This document shows, one piece after another, positions 171 through 6,778 of a stretch of DNA of 6,778 nt. This DNA is from Chloroflexi bacterium RBG_19FT_COMBO_48_23. GTDB taxonomy: Bacteria; Chloroflexota; Dehalococcoidia; GIF9; UBA5620. A program made the translations under genes and the position numbers. The notes beneath the pieces are model-generated. The model saw only the letters and a list, made by a program, of their open reading frames with translations, made no database searches and was not told the DNA's origin. The stretch's first letter is position 1. Every line of letters starts with the position of its first letter. Location: positions 163 to 6,940 of the forward strand of contig MGOH01000016.1 of NCBI GenBank assembly GCA_001795315.1. Direction: 5' to 3'.

Positions 171-242
171 GCCCCTGTAGCTCAGGGGATAGAGCACCGG
201 CCTCCGGAGCCGGGCGCGAGGGTTCAAGTCCCTCCAGGGGCG
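171..242 (+). tRNA. tRNA-Arg, anticodon CCG (reads CGG)
   Basis: The full cloverleaf folds by eye. The acceptor stem is GCCCCTG (171-177) with CAGGGGC (235-241). The D stem is GCTC (180-183) with GAGC (192-195). The anticodon stem is CCGGC (197-201) with GCCGG (209-213) around loop CTCCGGA, giving anticodon CCG at 204-206. The T stem is GAGGG/CCCTC around TTCAAGT (223-229). The discriminator is G242, normal for arginine tRNAs. The 3' CCA is not encoded (TTT follows), so it must be added after transcription. The first coding gene begins only 11 bases downstream on the same strand, suggesting co-transcription. Confidence 0.97.
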
Positions 243-253: not shown

Positions 254-1150
254 TTGAGGAATTTGAAAAAAAGAGACGAGATAATCGAAATTCGTTGGCA
301 CGGAAGAGGTGGTCAAGGGGCAGTAACATCGGCTGAACTGCTGGCACTGGCAGCTATAGAAGAAGGCAAATTTGCCCAGGCATTTCCCAGCTTCGGCCCG
401 GAAAGAAGGGGAGCCCCGGTGCTGGTTTTTAACCGTGTTAGCAATACCACCCCCATCAGAGCCAGAGTTTCGGTAACAAATCCTGACATCGTGGTAATCT
501 TAGACCCGGGCCTAATTTATATCACAGATGTCACTGCGGGACTAAAGGAAGGCGGCGTTCTAGTAATCAACACCACCAAAACTTTGGTTGACATAAAGTC
601 GGAATTGAACGGCCCATGGAAGCTTGCTGTAGTTAATGCCGCTTCTATTGCCCGAGAGACAATCGGCGTTCCAATCGTCAACACTACAATGCTCGGTGCC
701 CTGATCAAGGCTACAGATATAATAGGGCTAGAATCGCTAACAGAGCCTCTAAAGGAGCGCTTTGGTGCCAGAGCCAAGGGCAACAGCGACGCCTGCCGCA
801 GAGCCTATGAAGAAACTGAAGTAGCTGAACTTAGCGGCGTTGTTAAAAAGTCAAGCAAAACGTTCGAAACGGAAACATTTCCATCCTGGCGGGAATTACT
901 ACCCGGCTGTGTTATCACTGAGGCGGGAAATGCCAAGCAATATCGTACCGGAGATTGGAAATCAGAACTTCCAGTATGGGACCAACAGAAATGCATTAAA
1001 TGTGGAATTTGTTACCTTTTCTGCCCAGAAGGGTGCATCGGACAAAATAAGGACGGCTACTTCGAAGCCAATCCGTACTACTGCAAAGGATGTGGTATTT
1101 GTGCCCGCGAGTGCTGGACAGAAGCTATAAAGATGGTAGAGGAAGAATAG
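254..1150 (+). CDS. porGD: Pyruvate/2-oxoacid:ferredoxin oxidoreductase, fused gamma and delta subunits
   Basis: This is a cytoplasmic subunit of a multi-subunit 2-oxoacid:ferredoxin oxidoreductase. Residues 10 to about 195 form the gamma domain. The glycine-rich HGRGGQGA stands at 16-23, and the family signature AFPSFGPERRGAP at 43-55. Residues about 228-298 form the delta ferredoxin domain, opened by the typical TGDW...PV segment. It has two CxxCxxCxxxC motifs, C247/C250/C253/C257 and C277/C280/C283/C287, for two [4Fe-4S] clusters that carry electrons from the beta subunit outward. The second motif ends in Cys-Trp rather than the usual Cys-Pro. Gamma and delta are separate genes in many archaea but fused here; 298 residues fits the sum. 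The start is TTG at 254 or 263, both 5' of the conserved region. The gene lies 11 bases after tRNA-Arg and 2 bases before the alpha gene. Family assignment is firm; pyruvate as the substrate is inferred from the alpha and beta subunits. Confidence 0.95.
   Translation: MRNLKKRDEIIEIRWHGRGGQGAVTSAELLALAAIEEGKFAQAFPSFGPERRGAPVLVFNRVSNTTPIRARVSVTNPDIVVILDPGLIYITDVTAGLKEGGVLVINTTKTLVDIKSELNGPWKLAVVNAASIARETIGVPIVNTTMLGALIKATDIIGLESLTEPLKERFGARAKGNSDACRRAYEETEVAELSGVVKKSSKTFETETFPSWRELLPGCVITEAGNAKQYRTGDWKSELPVWDQQKCIKCGICYLFCPEGCIGQNKDGYFEANPYYCKGCGICARECWTEAIKMVEEE
1139..1145 (+). promoter_or_regulatory. Ribosome binding site deciding the alpha-subunit start
   Basis: GAGGAAG lies 7 bases before the ATG at 1153, inside the last codons of the gamma/delta gene. 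The reading frame is open further upstream, back to an ATG at 1090, but those residues overlap the delta ferredoxin motif and are not conserved-looking. The site and the family N-terminus both favour ATG 1153. Confidence 0.75.
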
Positions 1151-1152
1151 AG

Positions 1153-2328
1153 ATGGCAATAAAGCGAATAGGCATGGAGGGCTCCTTCGCCATAGCCGAG
1201 GCTATCAAATTGGCCCGTGTCGAAGCTGTAGCCGCTTATCCAATTACACCTCAAACTCATATCGTGGAGCGGTTAGCCGAGTTTGTAGCTAACGGTGAGC
1301 TAGATGCCGAATATATTCCAGTGGAATCAGAACATTCAGCAATGAGCGCCTGCCTGGGGACTTCGGCTGTAGGTGCCAGAACTTTTACTGCTACCGCCAG
1401 TCAGGGACTGGAACTTATGCACGAGGTACTATATGTGGCCTCAGGACTAAGATTGCCAATAGTCATGACAGTAGCCAACAGAGCACTCTCAGCACCATTA
1501 AGCATCTGGACAGACCATTCTGATGCGATGGCAATCCGAGACTGCGGTTGGATTCAGATATTCGCCGAAAATGCTCAACAAGCCTTTGACTTGATGTTGT
1601 GTGCCTTTCGTATTGCTGAAGACCACACTGTCTTGCTACCAACAATAGTCCACATCGACGGATTTTACATTTCACACACAATCGAATCTGTCGAACTTTT
1701 AGAGCAAGAAGTGGTAGATAAATTCCTTCCTGAATACCGGCATCCTTATCCTCTCAATCCAGATAAGCCAGTAACCATGGGCGCATTTGGTCCTCCAATC
1801 ATTTACACCGAGACCAAAAAGGCACATGAGGTCGCATTAAGAGACTCTAAGAAAGTAATTCTCAAAGTGTGGCAAGAGTTTGGTAAGCTTTCAGGGCGTC
1901 ATTACGCACCAGTAGAAAGCTACAAGACAGAAGATGCTGACGTTTTGCTGCTGTGCATGGGGAGCTTCAGTGAAACAGCCATGATGGCCATTGATAAAAT
2001 GCAGGCAGAGGGTCAAAAGGTGGGACTGGTAAGGTTGCGTCTATGGAGGCCATTTCCAACTGAGGAGCTACGCCAGGCCGTAGGCAAAGCCCAAGTGCTT
2101 ATCATCTTCGACCGAGCTCTTTCTCTCGGAGGACCACCACCGGTCTGTTCTGAAATACAAGCAGCACTTTACCCACTAAAGACCAGGCCGAAGATTGTAA
2201 GTTTTGTAGGCAGCCTCGGCGGAAGGGAAGTTTCAGCCAAAGGTTTTGAGGATATGATTCTTCATGGGATGGATAAAGCGAAGCAAGGTAAGCTTGATGA
2301 ATTCGAGATGATAGGAGTCAGAGAGTAG
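1153..2328 (+). CDS. porA: Pyruvate:ferredoxin oxidoreductase alpha subunit
   Basis: This 391-residue subunit carries the first TPP-binding half and the CoA/substrate side of the active site. The family signature YPITPQT sits at 29-35; T32 corresponds to the threonine, and R110 (in NRALSAP, 109-115) to the arginine, that hold the pyruvate carboxylate in the Desulfovibrio africanus enzyme. E60 in VESEHSA matches the glutamate that activates TPP. Further family marks are the WTDHSD stretch (119-124) and the ALSLGGPPPV-type segment near the C-terminus, the domain equivalent to transketolase C. Length is normal for PorA. Its ATG has a good ribosome site; its stop overlaps the beta start by one base (TAGTG), implying translational coupling. 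Retention of both pyruvate-contacting residues favours pyruvate. A branched-chain 2-oxoacid (Vor) role is the main alternative, since these families are close. Confidence 0.95.
   Translation: MAIKRIGMEGSFAIAEAIKLARVEAVAAYPITPQTHIVERLAEFVANGELDAEYIPVESEHSAMSACLGTSAVGARTFTATASQGLELMHEVLYVASGLRLPIVMTVANRALSAPLSIWTDHSDAMAIRDCGWIQIFAENAQQAFDLMLCAFRIAEDHTVLLPTIVHIDGFYISHTIESVELLEQEVVDKFLPEYRHPYPLNPDKPVTMGAFGPPIIYTETKKAHEVALRDSKKVILKVWQEFGKLSGRHYAPVESYKTEDADVLLLCMGSFSETAMMAIDKMQAEGQKVGLVRLRLWRPFPTEELRQAVGKAQVLIIFDRALSLGGPPPVCSEIQAALYPLKTRPKIVSFVGSLGGREVSAKGFEDMILHGMDKAKQGKLDEFEMIGVRE
2313..2317 (+). promoter_or_regulatory. Ribosome binding site for the GTG-started beta subunit
   Basis: AGGAG lies 10 bases before GTG 2328 and inside the alpha coding region. 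It supports the GTG that shares its first base with the alpha stop codon as the true start of the beta gene. Confidence 0.65.
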
Positions 2329-3257
2329 TGGAAAGTCTAGCCATATATGTCCCACGATTAGTAACGACCAAAGAATACTTTGCCCCGGGACATCGCGCCT
2401 GTATGGGCTGCGGTGAAGCCTTAGCTGTAAGGCTTGTGTGTAAGGCTCTGGGTCGAAATGTAATCATAGCCAATGCAACCGGATGTATGGAAATAGTTTC
2501 CTCGCCACTTCCTACCACCTCCTGGGAAGTTCCCTGGATTCATACTTTGTTTGAGAATACCGCGGCAGTGGCTTCCGGAATAGAAGCCGGAATAAAAGTC
2601 CTGACCCGCAAGGGTAAGTACACCAGGAAAACCAAGGTGGTAGCTATGGGTGGTGACGGCGGCACTGCCGACATCGGCTTTCAAGCTCTATCCGGTGCCC
2701 TCGAGAGAGGCCACGACTTTATATATATCTGTTTTGATAACGAGGCATATATGAATACCGGCATTCAGCGCTCCAGTGCCACTCCATTTGGTGCCTCTAC
2801 CACGACCTCACCAGCAGGCAAGTTTAGCATCGGGCAGACCACATGGAAGAAAAATTTGCCAGCTATCGCTGTAGCTCATGACATACCCTACGTAGCTACA
2901 GCTTGCCATAGTTATCCTTTTGACCTTATGAACAAAATTAGTAAAGCCATGGAAGTCAAAGGGCCGTCGTACATTCATATATTGTCGGTTTGTCCCACCG
3001 GCTGGCGACTACCTTCCGATTTAACTATCAGGGCAGGGCGACTAGCTGTTGAGACAGGCATTTTCCCTCTCTATGAGGTGGAAGAAGGCAAATATACGCT
3101 GAATTTAGATTTCCCGAAGTTGCGTCCTGTAGAGGATTACTTCAAACTGCAGGGAAGATTCAGGCATCTTTCGAAAGAGACGATATCACAAATCCAAGAA
3201 AGGGTAGCTGCTAAATATGCCAAACTCAAAGAGAGCGCTACCAGAAATAATTACTAA
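2328..3257 (+). CDS. porB: Pyruvate:ferredoxin oxidoreductase beta subunit (TPP and [4Fe-4S])
   Basis: This subunit binds TPP pyrophosphate through Mg and holds the cluster nearest the cofactor. The TPP signature starts at GDGG (109-112) and closes with N138/N143 in the NEAYMNTG stretch (138-145). Four conserved cysteines, C25 and C28 (CMGCGEA), C53 (TGCMEI) and C222 (SVCPTGW), match the proximal [4Fe-4S] ligands of PorB proteins. The PTTSWEVPWIH stretch (62-72), followed by FEN, is typical of pyruvate and isovalerate beta subunits and differs from 2-oxoglutarate enzymes. Length (309) is normal. It starts at GTG on the last base of the alpha stop and ends 2 bases before the NuoE-like gene, so the POR genes run directly into the NAD-linked genes. 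With the gamma/delta protein, the enzyme has three [4Fe-4S] clusters, as expected for a complete POR. Confidence 0.96.
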   Translation: MESLAIYVPRLVTTKEYFAPGHRACMGCGEALAVRLVCKALGRNVIIANATGCMEIVSSPLPTTSWEVPWIHTLFENTAAVASGIEAGIKVLTRKGKYTRKTKVVAMGGDGGTADIGFQALSGALERGHDFIYICFDNEAYMNTGIQRSSATPFGASTTTSPAGKFSIGQTTWKKNLPAIAVAHDIPYVATACHSYPFDLMNKISKAMEVKGPSYIHILSVCPTGWRLPSDLTIRAGRLAVETGIFPLYEVEEGKYTLNLDFPKLRPVEDYFKLQGRFRHLSKETISQIQERVAAKYAKLKESATRNNY

Positions 3258-3259
3258 CA

Positions 3260-3709
3260 ATGAATAAAAAGGTTAATTCTATTATAAACAAATACAATGG
3301 GGACAAAGGTCAACTGGTTTCTATACTTCAGGATATCCAGACTGAATACCATTATCTTCCCAAAGAGGCACTTATTCAGGTAAGTGAAACCATGGGCATT
3401 CCTGCAAGCCGAGTGTACGACGTAGCTACTTTTTTTAGAGCTTTCAGCCTCGAAGCCAGAGGTAAACACCTAATTAATGTTTGCCTGGGTACTGCCTGTC
3501 ATGTCAGAGGTGCCGCCAGAATACTAGAAGGGATTGAACGAGATTTAGCTATCAAGCGAGGTGCAACTACCAAAGACAGCAAATTCACATTGGAGACAGT
3601 CAACTGCATGGGATGTTGTGCCGTAGGGCCAGCCGTGAAGATCGACGGTGAATATTTCGGACATATGAGCACAGACAAAGTAGACAGTGTGCTTACCAAA
3701 TTTGAGTGA
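3260..3709 (+). CDS. nuoE: NuoE/HydC-like [2Fe-2S] thioredoxin-fold subunit
   Basis: This 149-residue protein belongs to the 24-kDa family of complex I (NuoE), also found as HydC/HndA in NAD-linked hydrogenases. An N-terminal helical bundle (about 1-68, with the LPKEAL and ASRVYDVATFF family stretches) precedes a thioredoxin-like domain whose C75-x4-C80 and C116-x3-C120 ligate one [2Fe-2S] cluster (N1a type). C119 is an extra neighbouring cysteine. In relatives the protein packs against the NADH/FMN subunit, which is the next gene here and overlaps it by 4 bases. No clear Shine-Dalgarno sequence precedes ATG 3260, only 2 bases after the porB stop. Translation probably depends on ribosomes finishing porB. 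No other complex I genes follow apart from NuoF- and NuoG-like ones, so this is a soluble diaphorase subunit, not respiratory complex I. Confidence 0.95.
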   Translation: MNKKVNSIINKYNGDKGQLVSILQDIQTEYHYLPKEALIQVSETMGIPASRVYDVATFFRAFSLEARGKHLINVCLGTACHVRGAARILEGIERDLAIKRGATTKDSKFTLETVNCMGCCAVGPAVKIDGEYFGHMSTDKVDSVLTKFE

Positions 3710-5586
3710 GTGCTAACAAAAACGAAATGCCAAAAAAATTCCGTTCGAAACAAGACTTAGAGGCTCTGCAAAAAGAGCTAATAAATGGAAGAAAATCAGA
3801 CAAGGCACTGATTGCGGTCTGCAACGGTACCGCTTGCCATCCTTATGACTGCGCCCATATCATACAAGCCTTTAAGCAAGAAATATCACAACAAGGTCTG
3901 GAAAATAAGACAGAGTTGAGAATAACAGGTTGTCATGGTCTCTGTGAGAAAGGCCCCATTGTAGTCATTCAACCGGGTGATATTTTCTACCAACAAGTGA
4001 AGTTGGAAGACGTGCCTGAGATATTGCGTGAGACGGTCAGTAAAGGCAATATTATTGACAGATTACTTCACGCCGACCCCACAAGCGGCAAAAAGATTGT
4101 ACATAGGAACGAAGTCCCGTTCTACCAGAAGCAAAAGCGAAACATCCTCGGCAATAACACTGAAATAGACCCGATTAAGATAGGTGATTATATCGCTATT
4201 GGTGGCTACACAGCTTTAGCCAAAGCTCTATCCGAAATGACTCCAGAAGAGATAATAGGAGAAATCAAACGCTCAGGTTTAAGGGGACGAGGTGGCGCAG
4301 GATTCCCCACAGGAACGAAGTGGGAATCCTGCCGTCATGCACCTGGAGATATAAAGTATGTCATCGTGAACGCTGATGAGGGTGACCCTGGAGCTTACGC
4401 TAACGAAGGTCTACTTTCCGGCAATCCTCACAGTGTACTTGAAGGTCTAATCATCGGTGCCTATGCCATCGGGGCTAATCAAGGCTATATTTACGTGCGC
4501 AACGAATATCCCTTAGCATTAGCTAACATAACAATTGCTCTAAACCAAGCACAACAGCTAGGATTGCTCGGAGAAAATATACTAGGCTCAGGGTTTGACT
4601 TTAATGTGCGCATAACCAGAGGTGGAGGTGCCTTCGTTTGCGGTGAGTCTACTGCACTAATGGCATCCCTCGAAGGCAAGGTTGGAGAGCCAAGAGCTAA
4701 ATATGTCCATACAGTGGAAAAGGGCCTATGGGATAAACCTAGTAACTTAAACAATGTAGAAACCTGGTCTAATGTACCCGTGATAATCAATAAAGGCGCT
4801 GATTGGTACCGTACCTTAGGCACTGATGGCAGCAAGGGTACAAAAATTTTCTCTCTGGTGGGTAGGATTAAAAACACAGGACTGGTAGAAGTACCAATGG
4901 GCATAACCTTAAAGGAAATCATCTATGATATTGGCGGCGGTATCCGGGAAGGGAAGAAATTCAAGGCAGTACAAACCGGTGGACCTTCTGGTGGCTGCCT
5001 CCCAGAAAGCCTGCTTGACTCACCAGTAGATTTCGACGAGTTGACTAAAGCTGGCTCGATGATGGGATCAGGTGGCATGATTGTCATGGATGAGACCACA
5101 TGCATGGTAGACATCGCTAAGTACTTTCTCACCTTCCTCGAAGAGGAATCTTGTGGTAAGTGCGTGCCATGCCGTGAGGGAATAAAGCGAATGCGGCAAA
5201 TTCTGGATGATATCACTGAGGGGAAGGGCAGCGAAGAAGATATCGACCTTCTGGAACGGCTTTCCGCCACCCTCGTAGACAGCTCTCTCTGTGCCCTTGG
5301 TAACACGGCACCAAATCCTGTTATTACCACTATCCGCTATTTCAGAGATGAGTATGAAGCACATATTAAGGAAAAGAGATGCCCCGCAGGTGTCTGTAAA
5401 GCTTTAATCCATTACTACATAATAGAAGAAAAATGCCCGGGCTGTGGACTTTGCGTTAAAGCTTGCCCTCAAGATGCTATAACTTTCCTAGGCAAAAAGA
5501 AACCGGTTGCCCTGGATGAGTCGAAGTGTATCAAGTGTGGAGCTTGTTACGACGTCTGTAAACTAGGAGCTGTAGGTAGAGAGTAA
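3706..5586 (+). CDS. nuoF: HydB/NuoF-like NADH-binding FMN and Fe-S subunit with N- and C-terminal extensions
   Basis: This 626-residue subunit exchanges electrons with NAD(H). Four parts are visible. The N-terminal thioredoxin-like [2Fe-2S] domain has C39-x4-C44 and C76-x3-C80, a paralogue of the domain in the preceding gene. The NuoF core has the FMN loop RGRGGAGFPTGTKW (193-206), NADEGDPGAY (222-231) and the glycine-rich NADH region from GGGAFVCGES (306-315). After an SLBB-type segment comes the N3-type [4Fe-4S] site C483/C486/C489 plus C529. The C-terminal ferredoxin domain has C577/C580/C583/C587 and C608/C611/C614/C618. C466, C559, C564 and H569 could form the zinc site known from HydB relatives. 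This order matches HydB of electron-bifurcating hydrogenases, whereas complex I NuoF lacks both extensions. GTG 3706 overlaps the previous stop by 4 bases (GTGA) without a clear ribosome site; ATG 3727 is an alternative start. No hydrogenase gene follows in this operon. Confidence 0.95.
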   Translation: MSANKNEMPKKFRSKQDLEALQKELINGRKSDKALIAVCNGTACHPYDCAHIIQAFKQEISQQGLENKTELRITGCHGLCEKGPIVVIQPGDIFYQQVKLEDVPEILRETVSKGNIIDRLLHADPTSGKKIVHRNEVPFYQKQKRNILGNNTEIDPIKIGDYIAIGGYTALAKALSEMTPEEIIGEIKRSGLRGRGGAGFPTGTKWESCRHAPGDIKYVIVNADEGDPGAYANEGLLSGNPHSVLEGLIIGAYAIGANQGYIYVRNEYPLALANITIALNQAQQLGLLGENILGSGFDFNVRITRGGGAFVCGESTALMASLEGKVGEPRAKYVHTVEKGLWDKPSNLNNVETWSNVPVIINKGADWYRTLGTDGSKGTKIFSLVGRIKNTGLVEVPMGITLKEIIYDIGGGIREGKKFKAVQTGGPSGGCLPESLLDSPVDFDELTKAGSMMGSGGMIVMDETTCMVDIAKYFLTFLEEESCGKCVPCREGIKRMRQILDDITEGKGSEEDIDLLERLSATLVDSSLCALGNTAPNPVITTIRYFRDEYEAHIKEKRCPAGVCKALIHYYIIEEKCPGCGLCVKACPQDAITFLGKKKPVALDESKCIKCGACYDVCKLGAVGRE

Positions 5587-5587
5587 G

Positions 5588-6307
5588 ATGGTAACCTTAA
5601 ATATTGACGGACGTGAACTTAAGGCTGAAAAAGGGCAAACAATACTTCAGGTAGCCAGAGAAAACGGTATTGATATACCCACTTTATGCCATAATGAAGC
5701 GTTAGAACCATACGGCGCCTGCAGACTGTGTATCGTAGAAATTTCCAAAGGAAAGCGTACGAGAATAGTCACATCATGTCTTTATCCTGTGGAAGCAGGA
5801 TTGAAAGTAAAAACTGATTCTTCCAGGGTTATAAGTAATCGTAAAATGCTTTTGGAGTTATTACTGGCAAGATGCTCTAAAAATAAGGTGATACTGAAAC
5901 TCGCATCACAGATGGGCATTGAGCAACCATCTTTTAAGTCTGAGTATCTAGAAGACAACGACTGTATTGTATGTGGTTTATGCGTTAGAGCCTGCGAGCA
6001 AGTTGTTGGTGTCAGCGCTATTAGCCTGGTCAATAGAGGCATAACTAAAGAACCTGCCTCCCCCTTCTTAGAACCAGCCGCAGATTGCATAGGCTGTGGT
6101 TCCTGCTACTATATATGCCCAACCGGCGCCATAAAAATGGAGGACAGAAAAGACTCCAGGATAATCTACAACTGGAAAGTGGAATTCAAACTTAAGAAAT
6201 GTAAAGTGTGCGGGAATTACTGGGCACCGGAAAAGCAATTAGAATACATCAAGAAAAAGTGGAACCTGCCTGAGGACTTCTTCGATACCTGTCCCACCTG
6301 CAAATAG
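5588..6307 (+). CDS. NuoG/HoxU-like small Fe-S subunit ([2Fe-2S] plus two [4Fe-4S]) with C-terminal four-Cys motif
   Basis: This 239-residue relay subunit resembles the N-terminal part of NuoG, HoxU and HydA. Residues 1 to about 78 are a plant-type [2Fe-2S] ferredoxin fold with C34, C45, C48 and C64. Residues 126-136 and 167-177 carry CxxCxxCxxxC motifs for two [4Fe-4S] clusters. Between them and the [2Fe-2S] domain, NuoG and HoxU have a His-Cys3 cluster site ending near GNCELQ. Here that segment (about 88-113) holds only C96 and no ligand His, so this cluster is absent. The C-terminus adds C205xxC208 and C235xxC238, a possible zinc or cluster knuckle. There is no H-cluster or molybdopterin domain. 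ATG 5588 is 1 base after the previous stop, with a weak AGGT at 5574-5577. It probably links the HydB-like subunit to POR or to free ferredoxin. It is the last operon gene. Confidence 0.9.
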   Translation: MVTLNIDGRELKAEKGQTILQVARENGIDIPTLCHNEALEPYGACRLCIVEISKGKRTRIVTSCLYPVEAGLKVKTDSSRVISNRKMLLELLLARCSKNKVILKLASQMGIEQPSFKSEYLEDNDCIVCGLCVRACEQVVGVSAISLVNRGITKEPASPFLEPAADCIGCGSCYYICPTGAIKMEDRKDSRIIYNWKVEFKLKKCKVCGNYWAPEKQLEYIKKKWNLPEDFFDTCPTCK

Positions 6308-6377: not shown

Positions 6378-6453
6378 CGGGGTGTAGCGCAGTGGCTAGC
6401 GCGCATGGTTTGGGACCATGAGGTCGGAGGTTCAAATCCTCTCACCCCGACCA
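6378..6453 (+). tRNA. tRNA-Pro, anticodon TGG (reads CCA), CCA encoded
   Basis: The acceptor stem CGGGGTG (6378-6384) pairs with CACCCCG (6443-6449). It starts with the C1-G72 pair that marks bacterial proline tRNAs and has discriminator A6450. The anticodon stem CATGG/CCATG encloses loop TTTGGGA, giving anticodon TGG at 6411-6413. The T loop TTCAAAT is present. CCA at 6451-6453 is encoded, unlike in the tRNA-Arg of this window. It has its own promoter, 70 bases after the end of the operon, with no clear terminator between. Confidence 0.97.
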
Positions 6454-6579: not shown

Positions 6580-6778
6580 ATGAACGACTACACAAATCCT
6601 GATTATAATAGGGTCGTGCTGCTTACTATTGATGTGCAGCATGATTGTACGATTCCCGGCGCCCCATTTGAGATTCCTGGTACAATTGATATCCTGCCTA
6701 AAATACAAAGCCTTGTACAAGCTTTCAGAAGCTCCCAGAAACCAATAATACATGTCGTCAGACTTTATTTGCCCGACG
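6580..6778 (+). CDS. Isochorismatase-family cysteine hydrolase, N-terminal part (runs off the window)
   Basis: The first 66 residues are visible, and the frame stays open to the right edge. The stretch VVLLTIDVQHD (12-22) is the first beta strand and catalytic-Asp motif of the isochorismatase-like hydrolase family; D18 is the expected triad aspartate. It continues into IPGAPFEIPGT, then a helix and the second strand (KPIIHVVRLY). The catalytic Lys and Cys lie beyond the window, so activity and substrate (nicotinamide, isochorismate, carbamoyl amides or others) cannot be told. ATG 6580 is the only sensible start, since an in-frame stop lies at 6568-6570. The ribosome site is weak. Its family has no known link to the POR operon. 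Confidence 0.85.
   Translation, partial: MNDYTNPDYNRVVLLTIDVQHDCTIPGAPFEIPGTIDILPKIQSLVQAFRSSQKPIIHVVRLYLPD

Follow-up and report, generated by a model that had tools for sequence, protein, structure and literature searches.

The closest described counterpart of the locus studied here is itself a prediction. From Dehalococcoides mccartyi, Schut et al. 2022 predicted a 'Por-Bfu' system, encoded between two tRNA genes, in which pyruvate:ferredoxin oxidoreductase (POR) is joined by a BfuABC module, and they posed for such operons the question of whether one enzyme or two is made (available sections of PMC9304861). Here we analyse 6,778 nucleotides (the whole stretch, hereafter the window) of Chloroflexi bacterium RBG_19FT_COMBO_48_23, contig MGOH01000016.1, in which six genes at 254..6307 encode a POR and BfuABC. 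We consider it probable, from comparison of the encoded proteins and of related loci, that the window encodes a Por-Bfu, that is, a POR coupled to a Type 2 BfuABC working in the bifurcating or confurcating mode. A full-text search for 'Por-Bfu' returned PMC9304861 as its sole match. Because Schut et al. had already proposed Por-Bfu, the window locus is a further case of the predicted kind; the idea is not new. This representative comes from Dehalococcoidia and has POR gamma fused to delta.

In the available sections of PMC9304861, the cluster of D. mccartyi 195 is likewise a Chloroflexi POR and BfuABC cluster between two tRNA genes, with a Type 2 BfuA (clusters A1, A2 and A4), but it has four POR subunits, whereas gamma and delta are one polypeptide in the window. 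Those sections define the Bfu family by a coupled reaction in which a third substrate reduces both NAD+ and ferredoxin, assign Por-Bfu to BfuB clade 45 of the published tree, and describe Type 2 Bfu as having additional catalytic subunits and a BfuA without A3 and A5; they contain no report of relatives in which the module is swapped or missing. The Wor-Bfu aldehyde oxidoreductase of PDB 9mqx, which is probably AmWOR1 of Acetomicrobium mobile (Feng et al. 2025, as cited in the available part of PMC13328260), has the BfuABC core in common with the window and a BfuA of 247 aa with a C-terminal CxxC...CxxC part; its third substrate is an aldehyde, taken up through tungstopterin subunits, rather than pyruvate through thiamine pyrophosphate (TPP). 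NiFe-HydABCSL (PDB 7t2r/7t30) and the HydABC FeFe-hydrogenases have the BfuBC core in common with the window, 7t2r_B being the best PDB match of its BfuB, but their third substrate is hydrogen and their HydA is longer, with extra clusters or an H-cluster. In PDB 9bt4, a pyruvate:ferredoxin oxidoreductase, the matched chains are POR subunits alone and the acceptor is, by name, ferredoxin. Phenylglyoxylate dehydrogenase (Pad, phenylglyoxylate:NAD oxidoreductase) is a 2-oxoacid:ferredoxin oxidoreductase with its own NAD-linked flavoprotein and is not known to bifurcate. NCBIfam Pad models are matched by the window, whose POR subunits score 36 to 54 percent of the cut-offs.

Results

The six genes run in one direction on the + strand between tRNA-Arg (ccg, 171..242, found by ARAGORN and Rfam), the 5' anchor of the locus, and tRNA-Pro (tgg, 6378..6453 by ARAGORN, 6378-6450 by Rfam), its 3' anchor, both on the same strand; the first gene begins 12 bases past tRNA-Arg and the last stops 71 bases short of tRNA-Pro. 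porGD (254..1150, with an uncertain TTG start at 254) encodes POR gamma fused to delta, with PorC_KorC at residues 10-189 and PorD_KorD at 222-298 (Pfam/NCBIfam). It is followed by porA (1153..2328), the alpha subunit, with a PDB match to 9bt4_B at E 1.1e-108, and porB (2328..3257), the beta subunit, with a TPP domain and one [4Fe-4S] cluster. The module consists of the HydC/NuoE-like bfuC (3260..3709), the HydB/NuoF-like bfuB (3706..5586) and bfuA (5588..6307; 239 aa), which corresponds to the N-terminal part of NuoG/HydA without the catalytic domain. Open reading frames, Pfam and NCBIfam support the six assignments; the best PDB match of each protein has an E value of 4.1e-44 or better. These matches, together with recurrence of the gene order in 31 further loci, argue that the set is more than chance. 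The six-gene POR and diaphorase set of the initial annotation is thereby confirmed. Its description of the junctions as 0-2 bases holds for four of the five (a 2-base gap, a 1-base overlap, a 2-base gap and, last, a 1-base gap) and fails at bfuC/bfuB, which overlap by 4 bases.

Pyruvate is the presumed substrate, and the scores against pyruvate-specific subunit models are mixed. PorB scores 428.3 bits against PRK11865 (pyruvate synthase PorB), above the cut-off of 405, while PorA (489.9 against NF040682, cut-off 550) and PorG (202.5 against NF040683, cut-off 270) stay below theirs; the best PDB match of all three is the POR 9bt4, which also has a PorD relative. In each of three single-contig genomes of the class, of 1.4-1.5 Mb (G019, G055 and G104), the sole further POR_N match is weak (64-68 bits) and falls in a frame of 628-638 aa that by its length is indolepyruvate oxidoreductase (IOR)-like. 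Two other loci (L003, L005) have a second PorG-like frame of 223 aa with 26-29% identity, outside the operon but inside the 16-kb locus.

Cysteines for two [4Fe-4S] clusters are present in PorD (247/250/253/257 and 277/280/283/287 in porGD numbering) and for a single one in PorB (C25, C28, C53, C222). BfuC has the ligands of the [2Fe-2S] cluster C1 (C75, C80, C116, C120). BfuB combines an N-terminal [2Fe-2S] cluster (B5), a flavin mononucleotide (FMN)/NAD(H) domain, B1 ([4Fe-4S]), B2 ([2Fe-2S]) and B3 and B4 (both [4Fe-4S]); alignment to 7t2r_B and a position check place the B2 ligands at C466, T504, H553, C559 and C564. BfuA has A1 ([2Fe-2S]) and two [4Fe-4S] clusters (A2, A4), no A3, no A5/H-cluster, and a C-terminal CxxC...CxxC site (C205, C208, C235, C238), which leaves C96 as its single remaining cysteine. 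Counted by ligands, the eight [4Fe-4S] clusters of the initial annotation are right (PorD 2, PorB 1, BfuB 3, BfuA 2); its three [2Fe-2S] clusters become four (BfuC 1, BfuB 2, namely B5 and B2, and BfuA 1), B2 having been missed.

All ligands of B1, B2, B3, B4, B5 and C1 are found in the window, and the locus has the features of Type 2, with POR genes present and a BfuA devoid of A3/A5. The Bfu domains are also present if, as we assume, the InterPro numbers of Schut et al. are equivalent to Pfam models PF01512, PF10531, PF10589, PF12838, PF01257, PF13510 and PF14697: the first four, for FMN, SLBB, NADH_4Fe-4S and 4Fe-4S domains, occur in BfuB; PF01257, for 2Fe-2S_thioredx, in BfuC; and PF13510 with PF12838/PF14697, for 2Fe-2S and 4Fe-4S domains, in BfuA. 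The same ligands are conserved in the relatives surveyed below. C1 is kept in 36/36 BfuC, 32 of them POR-linked. The 36 BfuB frames (32 POR-linked, four not) include 34 complete ones (30 and four), those of L042 and L044 being broken; the B2 Cys and His and the B1, B3 and B4 Cys are present in all 34, the B5 Cys in 36/36, and position 504 is T in 25, S in two and I in seven of the complete frames. Among 43 BfuA, the A1, A2 and A4 Cys are invariant and the C-terminal CxxC...CxxC site is present in 39; it is absent from L072-L074, with no POR in the fetched stretch, and from L071, where the frame ends early.

These ligands bear on the possibility that the window encodes a non-bifurcating NAD-linked POR, in which pyruvate reduces NAD+ only and no ferredoxin is needed, as in phenylglyoxylate:NAD oxidoreductase. 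In the available sections of PMC9304861, B2 is described as having Cys and His ligands and as typically not predicted, its His being absent from non-bifurcating homologues and missing in just 8/1558 BfuB; Thr replacing the second B2 Cys is the state of about two-thirds of BfuB, and non-bifurcating homologues are without B2 to B5. With B2, B3, B4, B5 and C1 complete in the window, and conserved in every complete BfuB, we regard this alternative as improbable here. The two best solved relatives of BfuB, 7t2r_B of NiFe-HydABCSL and 9mqx_B, also belong to bifurcating enzymes, and the sequence alignment of BfuA to 9mqx_A spans 4-239. Residues 122-239 of BfuA also match the formate hydrogenlyase iron-sulphur subunit model NF009053, at 41 bits against a cut-off of 204, which hints that C-terminal BfuA may share a metal-binding docking domain with HycF-like proteins.

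No match to the H-cluster domain PF02906 was found by Pfam in the window BfuA, in agreement with the initial annotation, and the locus is in this respect not a FeFe-hydrogenase HydABC. A HydA near the locus was looked for with the same model: PF02906 was unmatched in 6/6 genomes of loci L001-L006 and in 10/13 genomes of a second set (G001 is common to both), and in G019, G055 and G104 it lies about 400 kb or more away from the por-bfu operon. A hydrogenase hidden nearby was rejected on the lack of a match in G001-G006.

We searched 294 genomes of the class with BfuA; in 43 the match extends at least to residue 235 (in two pieces in G274). The survey took in 33 neighbourhoods around these or comparable matches (32 have POR, L051 has not), three loci with another type of BfuA, and L001-L006; the relatives are mostly draft genomes. 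The closest loci are Chloroflexota/Dehalococcoidia metagenome-assembled genomes, with BfuA 90% identical in L001 (CP070642.1) and 73-89% in five others; L001 is 92% identical to the window over the combined PorA, PorB and BfuA columns. BfuC-BfuB stands between porB and bfuA in 32 of the 39 POR loci, the window included, whereas in five (L065-L069) one protein of 638-649 aa replaces it and in two (L064, L070) bfuA directly follows porB. The window gene order, counted irrespective of the gamma-delta fusion, is that of the 31 further loci mentioned above, with bfuB broken in L042 and L044, so the arrangement is not peculiar to one genome and, as had been proposed, POR and the NAD-linked BfuABC form one genetic unit that recurs across the class. 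The breaks in these two and the early end of BfuA in L071 occur in otherwise complete operons and reflect sequencing error or decay.

To lessen the selection bias of a BfuA-based search, we searched the same genomes with PorB. It is nearly complete, with an identity of 65% or higher, in at least 63 and partial in at least three, and we examined 20 neighbourhoods without a full-length BfuA match or, in G225, with one on another contig. Sixteen of these consist of porG-D-A-B with nothing after porB; both tRNA-Arg and tRNA-Pro are present in 12 of them and one of the two in four. In total, 53 of at least 66 genomes with a close PorB were surveyed, the 13 listed ones left out being mostly short contigs. 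Excluding L094, where the contig ends just past porB, and including the window and L002-L006, this gives 58 informative loci. The slot after porB holds BfuCBA in 33 (counting L090, whose contig ends within BfuB, and L071, whose BfuA frame is 224 aa), nothing in 16, an FdhB/GltD-like flavoprotein with BfuA in five, BfuA alone in two, a BfuA stub in one and, in one, a BfuCBA of other origin with a short BfuA.

A locus framed by tRNA genes might be an insertion hot spot, with the genes after porB as its chance cargo, and the content of the slot does change often: the best POR tree (57 rows, unrooted) has 11 label changes, or six for any module being present or absent. Well-supported branches force fewer, namely five for BfuCBA, four for none and three for the FdhB-like type, and such counts do not tell gain from loss. 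A hot spot would, however, bring unrelated cargo. The downstream tRNA closes the slot in 50 loci, the other eight having no tRNA in the fetched stretch, and 47 of the 50 are free of unassigned frames of at least 80 aa. Of the remaining three, L042 and L044 have such frames in their broken bfuB, and L093 has one of 103 aa in antisense. Electron-transfer modules are all that the slot was seen to hold. These clean slots argue for real coupling, and we reject chance or hot-spot cargo as very improbable. Two loci depart in their surroundings: L091 has no tRNA within the 5.5 kb fetched and a 262-aa antisense frame after porB, and L099 has tRNA-Ile downstream instead of tRNA-Pro.

The tRNA frame itself is widely kept. 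In the BfuA survey, tRNA-Arg upstream and tRNA-Pro downstream stand on the operon strand in 28/39 loci; one or both were not scored in seven (L004, L006, L066 and L067 at region or contig ends; L002, where an over-long porGD frame covers tRNA-Arg; L048; L064), and the operon is inverted relative to the tRNAs in four (L040, L043, L046, L047). These four form one clade with L048 (100/100), joined in the 57-row POR tree by L090, which is also inverted; with the inverted loci in one clade, a single inversion is the simplest account. None of the trees includes L067, whose POR is divided between two contigs, and the POR trees do not include L051 and L072-L074, which have no POR.

The protein that replaces BfuC-BfuB in five relatives was scanned in L065 and L068. 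It has an N-terminal NADH_4Fe-4S domain, Fer4_20 and pyridine-nucleotide oxidoreductase domains, and its best NCBIfam and PDB relatives are of the GltD/Nfn type; among the best 120 of 5525 relatives, 'formate dehydrogenase beta subunit' is one of the database names. That the N-terminal part of the protein is akin to the iron-sulphur domain of NuoF/BfuB is indicated by Pfam PF10589 and PDB sequence matches, with Cys at 3/4 B1 positions and an extra Cys three residues past the last in 4/5 (not in L066); the AlphaFold model of a relative, P0002 (not a surveyed locus; pLDDT, the predicted local distance difference test, 77.2), yielded a fold comparison that barely covered residues 1-157. At E 1e-5, L065 and L068 gave no match to an FMN, thioredoxin-like [2Fe-2S] or Fer4 dicluster domain, from which we expect the replacement to be an NAD(P)H diaphorase that does not bifurcate. 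A non-bifurcating NAD-linked POR is the natural reading for these two loci, and the GltD/Nfn-type pyridine-nucleotide domain in five relatives is what speaks for such an enzyme.

In a tree of PorA, PorB and BfuA (38 rows), four FdhB-like rows do not form one clade, with two changes on the best tree, and a single origin of the replacement is rejected (approximately unbiased (AU) test, p 0.0004, four rows; with long branches present, under LG+G4 without mixture, and chosen after quick tree inspection). It thus appears that POR and BfuA remained constant through more than one exchange of the diaphorase. In the BfuB tree (35 rows, without the broken L042 and L044 and the partial L090), 30 POR-linked rows lie on one side of a branch (97/97) and four non-POR rows and L096 on the other; the L096 BfuB falls together with the BfuB of L072-L074, which are not POR-linked (100/99). 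This implies that POR acquired Bfu at least twice. The two loci with BfuA alone come out deepest in a rooted quick tree, but its outgroup lies on long branches (2.1-2.5) and long-branch joining is a concern raised by the careful unrooted tree; we therefore do not infer the sequence of the changes.

The part retained beside POR where BfuBC is replaced (five loci) or gone (two loci) is BfuA, a protein without a catalytic site. In L088, a BfuA of 124 aa directly follows porB; the N-terminal A1 domain is missing from it, whereas both [4Fe-4S] motifs and the C-terminal CxxC site remain, as expected if the [4Fe-4S]/C-terminal half faces POR and A1 faces the diaphorase, an orientation that this one locus suggests. 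An absolute requirement of POR for the C-terminal CxxC domain is rejected by L096. The gamma-delta fusion was considered as a mark of the Bfu link and rejected, being present also in the module-free L082 and L083.

L051 (1-7374), the neighbourhood without POR, encodes a CCG-domain protein (1-717), a molybdopterin oxidoreductase (837-2897) and an Oxidored_FMN protein (2988-4226), then BfuCBA. This BfuCBA, with a CxxC-type BfuA and not after POR, perhaps represents a further Bfu type. In the window, an isochorismatase-like gene begins after tRNA-Pro and runs off the window end (6580-6777; Pfam 26.2 bits, cut-off 27), and a 75-aa frame (120-347, - strand) antisense to tRNA-Arg is probably spurious.

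Discussion

Several observations count against POR and Bfu acting as one enzyme. The same POR occurs without any module in 16/58 loci, among them the close relatives L082 and L083 (PorB 77% and 75%), so POR evidently works alone, without need of the diaphorase. Other BfuB paralogues in the same genomes mean that Bfu need not serve POR. The L096 BfuA (211 aa) lacks the C-terminal CxxC domain, which disfavours assigning that domain a strict role in docking. With a mean pLDDT of 63.4, the AlphaFold model of BfuA is of poor quality and usable only for its match to 9mqx_A; this match itself counts in favour of the coupled enzyme, being the only one among the 50 listed to span 1-239, with a loose fit (190 aligned, root mean square deviation 10.3). 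Energetics, discussed below, add a further point.

The first two of these observations are also what would be seen if the operon made two enzymes, a ferredoxin-dependent POR and a soluble BfuABC, with ferredoxin as their sole link and co-transcription serving redox balance. The BfuCBA of L051, beside a molybdopterin oxidoreductase and without POR, and the complete two-cluster ferredoxin domain of PorD fit such an arrangement as well. It leaves less room for the retention of BfuA with POR where BfuBC is replaced or absent, and for the position of the 30 complete POR-linked BfuB (L096 aside) on one side of a supported branch; moreover, the D. mccartyi por-bfu genes have similar expression in all growth phases tested, as reported in the available sections of PMC9304861. 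We therefore judge two separate enzymes possible and rather unlikely.

In the coupled Por-Bfu that we favour, we infer a physical complex in which electrons would start from TPP in PorAB and pass by the PorB [4Fe-4S] cluster to the two PorD clusters, from PorD to the [4Fe-4S]/C-terminal half of BfuA, and on to A1 and the B1-FMN of BfuB. There they would be divided, in either direction: NAD(H) would exchange them at FMN, and ferredoxin by way of C1, B2, B3 and B4. In relatives with no other POR-type enzyme found, the enzyme would most likely form pyruvate from acetyl-CoA and CO2 with half of the electrons from NADH; with pyruvate in excess, it would yield NADH and reduced ferredoxin.

The energetic point concerns the proposal in the initial annotation that NADH and reduced ferredoxin drive reductive carboxylation, which proves the thermodynamically weaker option. 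With the potentials of Table 1 in the available sections of PMC9304861 (NADH -280 mV, ferredoxin -500 mV, pyruvate reductive carboxylation -500 mV), a 1:1 NADH/ferredoxin donor stands at -390 mV against -500 mV for pyruvate, or +21 kJ/mol, and suffices if [AcCoA][CO2]/([pyruvate][CoA]) (AcCoA, acetyl-CoA; CoA, coenzyme A) is above about 5e3. For ferredoxin alone the ratio is about 1 at -500 mV and about 5e2 at -420 mV. As the 1:1 mix is a weaker reductant than ferredoxin alone, the module would economise rather than drive pyruvate synthesis: it would spare ferredoxin when pyruvate is drained, or render pyruvate oxidation strongly downhill. The earlier interpretation is partly supported: the recurrent genetic unit, the bifurcation-specific ligands and the redox-only slot speak for it, while the 2022 precedent, the cluster count, the energetics and the module-free POR loci correct or limit it.

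The most useful addition made here is the pattern of exchangeable modules around POR, of which we found no description in the literature searched (mostly without subscription papers). We lean somewhat towards seeing the tRNA-Arg/tRNA-Pro por locus of Dehalococcoidia as an electron-acceptor socket, in which different lineages connect one and the same POR to different partners, with BfuA as the POR-side adaptor: a bifurcating BfuBC or a non-bifurcating NAD(P)-linked flavoprotein of the FdhB type, both by way of this BfuA, BfuA alone, a BfuA stub without the diaphorase-facing [2Fe-2S] domain, an independently acquired Bfu, or free ferredoxin.

In a metabolic model of Dehalococcoides, POR is the sole route from acetate to pyruvate (available part of PMC2930330). 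The step from acetyl-CoA and CO2 to pyruvate is the entry to biosynthesis for energy-starved organohalide respirers and their uncultured relatives. We know of no measurement of the electron donor of Por-Bfu pyruvate synthesis. If Por-Bfu works as proposed, NADH can supply half the reductant and spare scarce reduced ferredoxin. The natural exchange of diaphorases around a constant POR makes the question of one enzyme or two testable by comparison and, if the por locus is indeed a socket, the relatives would form a natural series for weighing the cost of bifurcation at the pyruvate step against its gain.

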